This document shows, one piece after another, positions 26,177 through 45,475 of a stretch of 64,000 nt of DNA. The notes beneath the pieces were generated by a model. It was given only the letters and a program-made list of their open reading frames with translations. It was not told the DNA's origin and searched no databases. The DNA lies in contig CALVEH010000004.1 of assembly GCA_944326545.1 (NCBI GenBank), positions 62,001 through 126,000 on the forward strand, given 5' to 3'. Position numbers and translations under genes: made by a program. The DNA comes from Candidatus Gastranaerophilales bacterium (GTDB taxonomy: Bacteria > Cyanobacteriota > Vampirovibrionia > Gastranaerophilales > Gastranaerophilaceae). Every line of letters starts with the position of its first letter. Position 1 is the stretch's first letter.

Positions 26177-26734
26177 ATGATATCAGTAAATGATTTAAAA
26201 ACAGGCTTAACACTTGAATTAGACAATGGACTTTGGTCAGTTGTAGAATTTTTACACGTAAAACCCGGTAAAGGTGCTGCGTTTGTTAGAACAAAACTTA
26301 AAAACGTTGAAACTGGTAACGTTGTTGAAAAAACATTCAGAGCCGGTGAAAAAGTTGCAAAAGCAACTCTTGATAAACGTGAAATGCAATACCTTTACAA
26401 AGAAGGTTCAGATTACGTTATGATGGATACAGAAAACTATGAACAATTGTCTGTACCTGAAAATCACATTGGTGACGGCGTTAAATATCTTAAAGAAAAC
26501 ATGAACGTACAAATTCTTTTACACGACGGTAAAATTATCGGTTTGGATATTCCTAACCACGTTGAATTGGAAGTTGTTGATACTCCTCCGTCAGAAAAGG
26601 GCAACACATCACAAGGCGGTACAAAACCTGCTACTTTAGAAACTGGTGCTGTTGTTAACGTTCCTTTCTTTATCGCTAACGGTGACAAAATCAGAGTTGA
26701 TACAAGAACAAACGAATACCTCGACAGAGTGTAG
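26177..26734 (+). CDS. efp: Elongation factor P
   Basis: Stimulates peptide bonds at polyproline stalls by binding between the P and E sites. The 185-residue product has the three beta-barrel domains; the loop KPGKGAAFVR contains the Lys that is modified in some bacteria. C-terminal GDKIRVDTRTNEYLDRV is diagnostic. GAGGAAA lies about 8 bases before the ATG. accB follows after 102 bases occupied by a structured RNA; the efp-accB order is also found in cyanobacteria. Confidence 0.96.
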   Translation: MISVNDLKTGLTLELDNGLWSVVEFLHVKPGKGAAFVRTKLKNVETGNVVEKTFRAGEKVAKATLDKREMQYLYKEGSDYVMMDTENYEQLSVPENHIGDGVKYLKENMNVQILLHDGKIIGLDIPNHVELEVVDTPPSEKGNTSQGGTKPATLETGAVVNVPFFIANGDKIRVDTRTNEYLDRV

Positions 26735-26803
26735 AGGAATCCGTGCGGACACGAAGATGTCCCTGTGATGCAAAACCACATTTTTGCGGAACACCGGTTT
26801 CCT
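26735..26803 (+). ncRNA. Three-way-junction RNA motif, copy 1 (efp-accB)
   Basis: Starts at the base after the efp stop. P1 pairs AGGAA-t-CCG (26735-26743) with CGG-t-TTCCT (26795-26803). P2 pairs GGACA with TGTCC (26747-26751/26758-26762). P3 pairs GCAAAA with TTTTGC (26770-26775/26782-26787), loop CCACAT. Junction strands are TGC, CTGTGA and GGAACAC. The copy at 43948 has different bases in all three helices but keeps the pairing and the junctions. Possible cis-regulator of accB; no known family recognised. Confidence 0.7.
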
Positions 26804-26836
26804 ATAAGAGTTAAATCTTAGTAAAAGGATGTTACT

Positions 26837-42440: not shown

Positions 42441-43745
42441 TTATAATTTGGGTACTGTTATTTCAAAAGTAGTACCGTTTTCGTCTGAGCTTATGAGTTT
42501 TAAATCTCCGTATTGCTCTTGCATTGCTTCTTTTGAAATATACAGTCCGAGTCCGCTGCCTGTAACTTTTGATGTGTAACCTTCTTCAAAAACTTTTGAA
42601 CATTTGTCTTTTTCTATACCGCAGCCGTTATCCGTGATTAAAATCTTGAGCATATTGTCTGATGTTTCTTCGGTTTTAATTTTTATTGTTCCGTTCTCTT
42701 TTACCGCGTCTATTGCGTTATAGAAAAGATTTATCATTACGTTCAAAAGTTTGTTTTCATCGGCTAAAATATTGCCGTTGTAAGGGTTTGAAACTTCAAA
42801 TTTTACGCCTGTTTGTTGTGCTTTTGCGTTTACAAGGTTTATGGCATTTTGCAATATTTGTGCAAAATTTAGTGTTTCAAGTTTGACGCTTTGGATTGTT
42901 CTAAGCTCTGTTAATAGAACCTCGATAGCCTCTTTAGATTTTTTTATGCTTGAAATTGCGTTTGTTATTGAGTCATGGAGTTCTGCGTTAGCAACAATTT
43001 CAAGTCTTTTTTCTATTATTTTTGAATACAAATCGATGATAGAAAGGTGATTTTTTATATCGTGAGAGATTACTTTTGCTTTTGTTGATATGTAATCATA
43101 TTTTTTTGCAATATCATCGCTTTCACCTAACAAGCCCACTTCTGCTTGGGTCATAGAGGCTTCTTCAACAAACGAATCTGCAAAGTTGATGAACTTGTGC
43201 ACCGCTTGGTTTAAAAGTTCGTTGCTTCTTCTTTCAGGGGTGTATTCTTGAATGTATCTGGTTAAATCAATTTTAGAGTTTTCAGAGATTATTTGAATAA
43301 CGTTGTTTACATCTCTTGAGTTTAAAAGGTAGTACAAACAAGATGTTTCTTTGATTGTTTCTGTAGAATAATCCCACAACATGCAGGCAGAATATCTTGG
43401 AGAAAGTAATACAAGGAATTCTGTTTGTCCCCAGATGTCATCTTTTGTGAGATTTTCGCCTTTTGTAACATCGTCAAAGGAGTAAACTTCTGCGTTTGTG
43501 AACTCGAGTCTTTTTAAAACTCCGTCAAGTTCTTTTGTATCAAAGAGTCTGATTAAAACAACAGCTTTTTGAGTTTGGGCTTCTAAAAGAGGTTCTAACG
43601 CAAAGCGAAACAAACCTTTGATGGTTTGTTTGTTGACAGGTTTTGTCTGTCCTAAATATATCAAATCTTTTAAAAGATTTTTTTGTCTAAAGTTTGCTCC
43701 GCTCATTTTTCTCTCTTGAATTTCCTTTGCGCTCAGACCTGTCAT
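42441..43745 (-). CDS. Histidine kinase linked to flagellar genes
   Basis: Soluble sensor kinase (434 residues). An N-terminal region of unknown sensing domain (about 1-200) precedes the DHp helix with SHDIKNHLS (His228) and the HATPase domain with NLFYNA (Asn343), DNGCGI (372-377) and GSGLGLYI. There is no membrane segment, so the sensor is cytoplasmic. It lies between the response regulator and flgB, so it may control flagellar expression or motility. An alternative start at 43706 is possible. Confidence 0.88.
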   Translation of the reverse strand: MTGLSAKEIQERKMSGANFRQKNLLKDLIYLGQTKPVNKQTIKGLFRFALEPLLEAQTQKAVVLIRLFDTKELDGVLKRLEFTNAEVYSFDDVTKGENLTKDDIWGQTEFLVLLSPRYSACMLWDYSTETIKETSCLYYLLNSRDVNNVIQIISENSKIDLTRYIQEYTPERRSNELLNQAVHKFINFADSFVEEASMTQAEVGLLGESDDIAKKYDYISTKAKVISHDIKNHLSIIDLYSKIIEKRLEIVANAELHDSITNAISSIKKSKEAIEVLLTELRTIQSVKLETLNFAQILQNAINLVNAKAQQTGVKFEVSNPYNGNILADENKLLNVMINLFYNAIDAVKENGTIKIKTEETSDNMLKILITDNGCGIEKDKCSKVFEEGYTSKVTGSGLGLYISKEAMQEQYGDLKLISSDENGTTFEITVPKL

Positions 43746-44026
43746 TCACTTCGCTGTCGCTTCTGTTCATTTTGGTCTTCGCTTTCCGGATTTCATCCGT
43801 TCGGAAATTCGCTTACCATTATTTAATCTGCTGGCGTTATGCCCGCTTGTAGTTTTTTTCGTCGGACAAGTCGTTCATTCACTATTGTCCTCATTACTTC
43901 GGCGCTCCTTCGCTTTGCTCAGTCAGCCTGCACAAAATCCGCTTCTTAGATTACCGGCGTTCGGAGAAAGCGTGGTTTCTCCTCACATGGGGCGTTTCGT
44001 TTCACTTCAGCCCCGCACGGAATCCG
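43746..44026 (-). other. Structured spacer between response regulator and kinase
   Basis: 281 bases with no ORF. The 5' part (minus strand) holds the second three-way-junction motif (43948-44026). Downstream are other hairpins: GGACAA/TTGTCC, and a stem ending in TTTCCG/CGGAAA with GGAT/ATCC inside. TTGTCCGA here also begins repeat copies B and C. Many GCGAAG-type units recur. Confidence 0.6.
43948..44026 (-). ncRNA. Three-way-junction RNA motif, copy 2
   Basis: Starts just after the response regulator stop. P1 pairs GGATTCCG with CGGTAATC (44018-44025/43949-43956). P2 pairs GGGGC with GCCCC (44010-44014/43989-43993). P3 pairs GGAGAAA with TTTCTCC (43977-43983/43963-43969). Junctions TGC, ATGTGA and GAACGC match copy 1 except for small changes. 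The P3 loop CCACGC resembles CCACAT in copy 1. Cis-regulation of the kinase-flgB-flgC-fliE genes is possible. Confidence 0.7.
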
Positions 44027-44737
44027 CTATATAGCGATTTTGACTTTTCTTCTGTTCAAAAATCCGTTGTTCAATGCGTACAACACAGCTTGTGTTCTAT
44101 CATTAACCTGCAATTTTTGGAAGATATTGTTTACGTGTGTTTTTACTGTTGTTTCTGAAATAAACAGTTTTTGTGCCACACCTTTGTAAGTTATGCCTTG
44201 TGTTAACAAATCAAGAACTTCTTCTTCTCTTTGTGTAAGGTAGTTAAGAAGATTTTCTTCATCTGCTGTATTTTCTGCTTCTTCTTTGAAAGATTTTTGG
44301 AAATATTCGAAAAATCTTGAGGACAAAGTTGCAGGTAAGTAAATTTTGCCTGCTGCAACTTCGTCTATTGCATAGATGAGTTGAGCAGAGGCCATTGTTT
44401 TTAAGATATAGCCTTTTGCACCAATCTTCATAGCTCTGAAAATTAAGTCAGGATCATCATAGCCTGTCAAAGCGATAATACGCACTCCCAAATCCAGTTT
44501 TTCAATCTCTGCTATCGCAGTTAGACCGTCTTTTTCAGGCATGTTGATATCCATTAACACGATTTCGGGACGATACTTCTTAATAAGACTGATTGCAACA
44601 CTTGCGCTTGTTGCTGTTGCCACAACATCGAAATCGCTCTCAATTTCAATCAATTCCTTGATACCTGACAAATGATCGTAATTGTCATCTACTAGAATGA
44701 TTCTGGCTTTCTTCTTAAATTCAAGACCTCTTCTCAT
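44027..44737 (-). CDS. NarL/LuxR-type response regulator
   Basis: Two-component regulator (236 residues). Receiver with Asp17, Asp18 and Asp63 (LMDINMPEKDG), then a C-terminal LuxR-type helix-turn-helix: LTQREEEVLDLLTQG and ETTVKTHVNNIFQKL. The ATG is 3 bases after a GGGGGGAG site. First gene of the run leading to the histidine kinase and flagellar rod genes, which are likely its partner and targets. Confidence 0.92.
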   Translation of the reverse strand: MRRGLEFKKKARIILVDDNYDHLSGIKELIEIESDFDVVATATSASVAISLIKKYRPEIVLMDINMPEKDGLTAIAEIEKLDLGVRIIALTGYDDPDLIFRAMKIGAKGYILKTMASAQLIYAIDEVAAGKIYLPATLSSRFFEYFQKSFKEEAENTADEENLLNYLTQREEEVLDLLTQGITYKGVAQKLFISETTVKTHVNNIFQKLQVNDRTQAVLYALNNGFLNRRKVKIAI

Positions 44738-45020: not shown

Positions 45021-45378
45021 CTAGGAGCAGTCGGATAATCGCGCAGATGAAAAATTCTGTGAGGAAAGTCCGGGCACCCAAGGGCAGACCGCCTGATAAC
45101 GTCAGGTACGGGCGACCGTGAGGATAGTGCCACAGAAATGCAGACTGCCGATGATTCCTGACTTTGTCAGCGAAAACAGGCGATGGTGCAACGGCGAGGT
45201 AAGAGCTCACCGGCAAGGCTGAGAGGTCTTGGCCAGGTAAACCCCGGTCGGGTGCAAGGTCAACTAAAAGGTTAAGGTGACCCGCCGTCTTTTGACAGAC
45301 CGCTTGAGCTTGCAGGCAACTGTAGGTCGAGACAGATGATTATCTAAAAACAGAACCCGGCTTATGAGCTGCTCCTTT
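45021..45378 (+). ncRNA. rnpB: RNase P RNA, class A
   Basis: Catalytic RNA of RNase P. Near the 5' end GAGGAAAGTCCGGGC and near the 3' end CAGAACCCGGCTTA are the universal signature blocks. P1 pairs AGGAGCAG (45023-45030) with CTGCTCCT (45369-45376), followed by a T run that ends the transcript. Length about 355 bases, typical of class A. A minus-strand frame of 82 codons overlapping it is a shadow. Confidence 0.97.
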
Positions 45379-45475
45379 TTATTTTTGTAAAAGCGGTTTC
45401 GCTTGTAGAAGTGGTTTGGACTTGTTTATTGCACAGGTTCATCAAGTGTTTCGAGTCAGTTGACAATATGAAATA

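Follow-up and report, generated by a model that had tools for sequence, protein, structure and literature searches.

Three-way-junction repeats of the Gastranaerophilales as a probable REP/BOX-like family of miniature mobile DNA

Introduction

Two spacers that follow stop codons within operons of a Candidatus Gastranaerophilales bacterium can each be folded into three helices around a similar core, the sequences of the helices differing between the two spacers. One question then is what maintains this fold. A preliminary description of the window, by which we mean the whole 64,000-nucleotide stretch of DNA analysed here, saw in the pattern a ligand-binding or protein-binding regulatory RNA of the operons concerned. 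We consider instead, with a probability of roughly 0.8, that the element, 70-140 bp long, is a miniature mobile repeat of DNA, non-autonomous and similar to the REP and BOX repeats; its top strand folds into a three-way junction and would be recognised in this folded state. The case would imply that strong covariation around a conserved core, a standard signature of a riboswitch, can arise from a mobile repeat under selection for transposition.

Two copies and their surroundings

The first copy lies in the efp-accB spacer, following the gene for elongation factor P (efp, 26177..26734, + strand). Its core (26735..26803, +) is closed by P1, in which 26735-26746 pair with 26793-26803, and bears two arms, namely P2 (26747..26762, +), reading GGACA-CGAAGA-UGUCC, and P3 (26765..26792, +), which consists of a GU/AC step, tandem G.A, the stem UGCAAAA/UUUUGCG and the loop CCACAU. 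The second core (43948..44026, - strand) occupies the spacer between the genes of a response regulator with LuxR-type output (44027..44737, -) and a histidine kinase. Both copies had been described as beginning directly after a stop codon, and this is so; the mobile unit delimited below extends one base further, such that in the efp-accB spacer (26734..26809, +) its first G is the final base of the efp TAG at 26734, while in the second copy (43943..44027, -) the first G, at 44027, finishes the TAG of the response-regulator gene. The 3' tail of the efp-accB unit has decayed to ATAAGA in place of AAGACA, and that of the second unit reads AAGAA.

Each MFE fold contains all three helices (-21.0 kcal/mol at 26735 and -28.8 kcal/mol at 43948; z-scores -2.07 and -2.61), in agreement with the pairing, sequences and coordinates first reported for them. 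Run on the window, a covariance model recovers the two copies with E values of 5.7e-19 and 4.2e-17, both having been used to seed it, and many copies elsewhere that were not in the seed are found at E 1e-9 to 1e-16. The three-helix pattern of the two window copies is not due to chance. The efp copy is slightly decayed, because its P1 pairs one position out of register (AGGAA/UUCCU, including a U.U) and the last P1 pair is C.A.

The second copy belongs to an array. Adjacent to it lies another miniature element (43812..43941, -), degenerate here (GCGGATTTTGTGCAGGCTGAC...) and represented in genome G017 by a counterpart with intact ends, followed by a third element, whose ends are similar but whose interior is of another type (CGAATTTCC...GGAAATTCAAGA; 43714..43811, -), and which overlaps the called start of the histidine-kinase gene. 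That start (43745) falls within repeat sequence (window 43706-43745); the true start is probably the ATG just past the repeat, or else the repeat adds an N-terminal extension. A complete class A RNase P RNA (Rfam RF00010, 242 bits) is encoded near this copy, at window positions 45023-45380.

Distribution of the family

A pattern search located a third copy in the same genome, in the rplN-rplX spacer, and returned eleven strict matches, spread over six of the genomes in the genus. A covariance model derived from seven distinct copies, a search of the kind initially suggested for related genomes, matched all 23 genomes of the genus (1-37 copies per genome), with helices that covary. Beyond the genus, copies at E<=1e-4 are present in 5 of 41 genera of the family sample (239 genomes) and 5 of 50 genera of the order sample (286 genomes), the five positive genera all belonging to one Gastranaerophilales family. 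When 84,980 species genomes were scanned for the core and 3' arm, matches were confined to Gastranaerophilales MAGs, one MAG named Heliobacteriaceae, the contigs of which match genome G041, itself within the GTDB family of the window, and one chance match in Microvirga, to which the covariance model gave no match. None of the viral contigs searched carried the element.

Many copies are situated at contig ends, the genomes being draft assemblies. Identical copies at different sites occur eight times in G018 (68 nt) and ten times in G041 (67 nt). Arrays of two or three units, joined by the short linkers AAGACAG, AAGAAG or AAGAGG, are common. We also looked for an autonomous form, in which the ends would enclose a gene; among the 3' ends that were read there were only short elements.

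Against Rfam neither window copy gave a match, at the gathering threshold or up to E=10, in keeping with the initial impression that no known riboswitch class is involved, and a literature search returned no repeat descriptions for Gastranaerophilales or Melainabacteria. Very small mobile repeats have been reported in cyanobacteria (Elhai et al. 2008, as cited in PMC3733652), and the element may overlap with a family described there. It is best regarded as a new family of the REP/BOX kind, missing from the catalogued RNA families.

Structure and covariation

The alignment comprises 105 copies, 80 of them distinct. Measured on an alignment fitted to the structure of the model, and against shuffles that ignore relatedness, so that the figures lean towards structure, standard pairs fill 98.2% of the pair cells in the 80 distinct copies as against 75.5% (sd 0.6) after shuffling, with double compensatory changes at 20 of the 24 pairs; with one representative per 90% cluster (n=40), 931 of 949 cells are paired. 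The covariation score is 0.637, compared with 0.210 for shuffled alignments and 0.03-0.15 when partner columns are offset by one to three, and since the slid controls are far lower and many pair types are represented, the conclusion of covariation is safe. The proposal that the fold is under selection, its core conserved and its helices covarying, is thus borne out.

The consensus P1 consists of 5 + 3 + 2 pairs with bulges and is followed by P2 and P3; compared with the helix first described, the wider alignment adds two covarying pairs and brings P1 up to the junction. P3 starts with GU/AC, replaced in other copies by GC/GC, and continues through a tandem G.A / A.G step into a seven-pair stem. 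The parts originally taken as unpaired and nearly identical, 'UGUGA ... GAAC', are indeed conserved, but because they constitute the GU/AC step and the tandem G.A/A.G that prolong P3, only about two junction nucleotides remain unpaired, with the consensus [A/C/U]U. A pseudoknot between CCAC in the P3 loop and the GUG before P2 was considered and rejected: copies with ACGGGG for GUGCGG retain CCAC, and other copies have a CGUUAC loop.

The view that the two copies covary throughout needs qualification. The arms act as modules, one and the same P2 arm (GGCUGUGGAGUC...GAACAGCC) being found with a P3 of the CCACGC, the CGUUAC or the long AACAAGGUU type, and since exchange of a whole arm keeps its pairing, such exchange explains part of the covariation between the window copies. 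True compensation is seen in P1, the strands of which lie at opposite ends of the element, and in the orthologous rplN-rplX copies, where double changes have occurred in place (A-U to G-C in P2, G-C to A-U in P1).

Counted as pair by cluster, G.U pairs number 32 as against 13 A.C mismatches, and in 54 of 79 copies the + strand, the one shown here, folds more stably than its complement. The excess of G.U together with the strand bias implies that one strand folds, either as RNA or as single-stranded DNA.

Boundaries, empty sites and targets

The limits of the inserted unit are given by empty sites. Three in G041, present in the same genome, match with 0 mismatches (AGATCCTGAAACA^AGTTCAGGATGAC, AGATTCCGGGTCA^AGCCCGGAATGAC and AGATGCTGAAATA^AATTCAGCATGAC); one in G018 (TAGGTTGGGCATA^CCTGCCCAACAAA) has a single mismatch, and a further one is found in G013 (GCACAGGCAACAA^GTGCATGGGGTCA). 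These sites define the unit as G-CGGATT...AATCC-AAGACA, and since the junctions have at most one base in common there is no target-site duplication. Most targets end in A. Palindrome arms of at least 6 bp surround the insertion point in 6 of 33 distinct flank families as against 2.6% of random positions (P ~2e-4), the remaining sites not being palindromic. Other miniature elements with different interiors have ends identical in type to those of the three-way-junction element, which points to the ends as a mobility signal.

G041 harbours a second repeat system (L067-L085, L183-L192), on whose palindromes, GATCCTGAAACAAGTTCAGGATGAC and GATTCCGGGTCAAGCCCGGAATGAC, the elements land. Other phyla are known to have similar palindromes.

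Could the mobile form be an RNA, the folding of which would be required for a ribozyme- or reverse-transcriptase-based cycle? The bias of the top strand towards G.U over A.C would suit such an RNA stage, as would the lack of a target-site duplication, but folded DNA likewise tolerates G.T, ribozyme families gave no match, and reverse transcriptase is missing from G010, G013, G016, G018 and G041, being found in G000 and G022. We therefore regard an RNA stage as unlikely.

Stop codons, orientation and host genes

The stop-codon fusion (TA^G) is found in 13 copies and involves eight different genes, encoding EF-P, a response regulator, ribosomal protein L14, an HD-domain protein (which we take to be RNase Y), a PSP1-like protein identified by eye and without a Pfam match, fructose-bisphosphate aldolase, GpsA and PheS. 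That the leading G of the element turns TA into TAG explains its placement after the stop codons of eight unrelated genes. All 13 fused copies are in sense orientation. Among the others, counted on ORFs of 120 aa or more that we called ourselves, those between codirectional genes are 7 sense and 7 antisense, and 24 lie in convergent or divergent spacers; away from stop codons the orientation is random.

This distribution bears directly on whether the family consists of cis-regulatory RNAs, riboswitches or protein-binding leaders of these operons. The conserved junction core with its covariation, the uniformly sense orientation of the fused copies, and an rplN-rplX copy kept in six genomes with compensation in place are all features that such RNAs would possess. 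Yet orientation elsewhere is random, units form tandem arrays and insert within other repeats, identical copies stand between unrelated genes, and the neighbouring genes have no common theme, as the fused genes themselves illustrate. In about ten sister genomes efp and accB are separated by a short spacer that lacks the element, and in others different repeat types occupy the same position at the stop codon. Dispersal, random orientation and exact empty sites together tell against the regulatory RNA first proposed, an explanation that we consider highly improbable; regulation cannot be the reason for the family's existence, while single old copies, such as that at rplN-rplX, may have a role in the mRNA.

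The efp-accB spacers of G011, G004 and G012 (L125-L127) are hairpin-like and end in CCGAACGCCGGTAT or CCGAACACCGGTAT; they may be related to the element as decayed or one-armed forms.

A related explanation is that the copies are old REP or MITE debris, formerly mobile and now retained in operons for mRNA stability or processing. The stop-fused rplN-rplX copies, with a locus-specific P1 (GTTTT/AAAAC) that still pairs and with double changes in place, are consistent with this, and the BOX repeats of pneumococci likewise provide stop codons (PMC3049150). The compensatory changes at rplN-rplX could reflect selection on the mRNA after insertion. Against retention as a general account, the identical copies in G018 and G041 imply recent amplification, P3 is mismatched in the copies that follow the HD-domain gene (L010, L106), P1 of the efp copy has its defects, and in G008 a degenerate spacer alone remains at rplN-rplX. 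As an account of the family we find retained debris doubtful, but it may apply to single copies alongside the mobile-repeat explanation.

In most sister genomes (L139-L147, L151) the rplN-rplX spacer is a different conserved structured sequence, GGTGTGTGAAACCCGTCGGGGTTCGAG...ACAGGCGG, unrelated to the three-way junction.

A possible mechanism and the mobilising enzyme

For a mobile DNA repeat, the mode of insertion can be read from the occupied and empty sites. The unit inserts 3' of an A, without target-site duplication, often into the loop of another palindromic repeat, otherwise at its own 3' end, giving tandem arrays, or into the TA of a stop codon, giving TAG. By analogy with the REP/TnpA-REP and IS200/IS605 systems, the folded single strand would be recognised by a trans-acting enzyme, and this recognition would maintain the helices and the junction. 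Copies in operons, once transcribed, would become structured spacers, and any influence on the mRNA would be secondary.

Candidate enzymes were sought by family. Y1_Tnp is found in 8 of the 23 genomes of the genus and in none of G010, G016, G018 and G041, and around the ten Y1 loci searched the model had no match; IS110 (DEDD) transposase is missing from all 10 genomes tested, control genomes being positive. Since these two families, like reverse transcriptase, are missing from relevant genomes, they were rejected as the mobilising enzyme. We tentatively suggest, at less than even odds, that the three-way junction is the substrate of some other mobility system, in which a branched single strand would be recognised by shape, through the junction and the tandem G.A, leaving the arm sequences free to change or exchange, and would enter hairpin loops and stop codons without duplicating the target.

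Comparison with known systems

The element has the general properties of small interspersed non-autonomous mobile repeats, namely dispersed near-identical copies, definable empty sites and no coding capacity. TnpA-REP (RAYT) is a HuH enzyme of the IS200/IS605 type. Like the REPs and REPINs, which are recognised in trans by TnpA-REP (PMC8266576, PMC6006769), the element is short, extragenic, clustered, non-autonomous and of high copy number, with a bulged folded single strand as its probable recognition element. It differs in being a three-way junction of 70-140 nt and not one hairpin of 20-65 nt, in having no GTAG/CGTC tag 5' of the palindrome, its stem being preceded by ..AG with a variable base before the AG, and in the lack of a cognate Y1/TnpA-REP in the four genomes named above, several genomes of highest copy number being without TnpA-REP. 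The family has clean empty sites, its arms exchange freely, and several of its highest-copy hosts have no recognisable transposase, so that one may now test in a new lineage, the non-photosynthetic relatives of cyanobacteria, what mobilises REP-like repeats.

Bacterial MITEs such as Correia/NEMIS, ERIC and RUP (a comparison class; PMC2229807) share a length of 100-200 bp, a terminal inverted repeat (here P1), non-autonomy and co-transcription with neighbouring genes, but the present element has neither target-site duplication nor TA target and conserves an internal three-way junction; a MITE of a DDE transposon was rejected because, despite the inverted ends, the empty-site junctions have at most one base in common. 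Insertion sequences that target REPs (ISPa11, ISPpu9, ISPsy8), some of the IS1111/IS110 type, also land within palindromic repeats, and IS1111 members add no bases on insertion (PMC1525189, PMC11187229); our element, by contrast, is geneless and its targets vary widely in sequence. By inspection, the boundaries GCGGATT / AATCCAAGACA do not fit the RYYYAAC / GTTRRRY core sites of an integron attC. The hammerhead ribozyme likewise has a three-way junction with tandem G.A beside one stem, but a hammerhead-like core was rejected, since GU/AC covaries to GC/GC, there is no unpaired third strand for a cleavage site, and Rfam gives no match.

The BOX elements of Streptococcus pneumoniae are modular and structured, and some supply the gene before them with its stop codon (PMC3049150). 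In these respects, as in being mobile and intergenic, they resemble the element; their sequence is unrelated, and the modularity seen here consists in the exchange of hairpin arms, with covariation, around a fixed junction.
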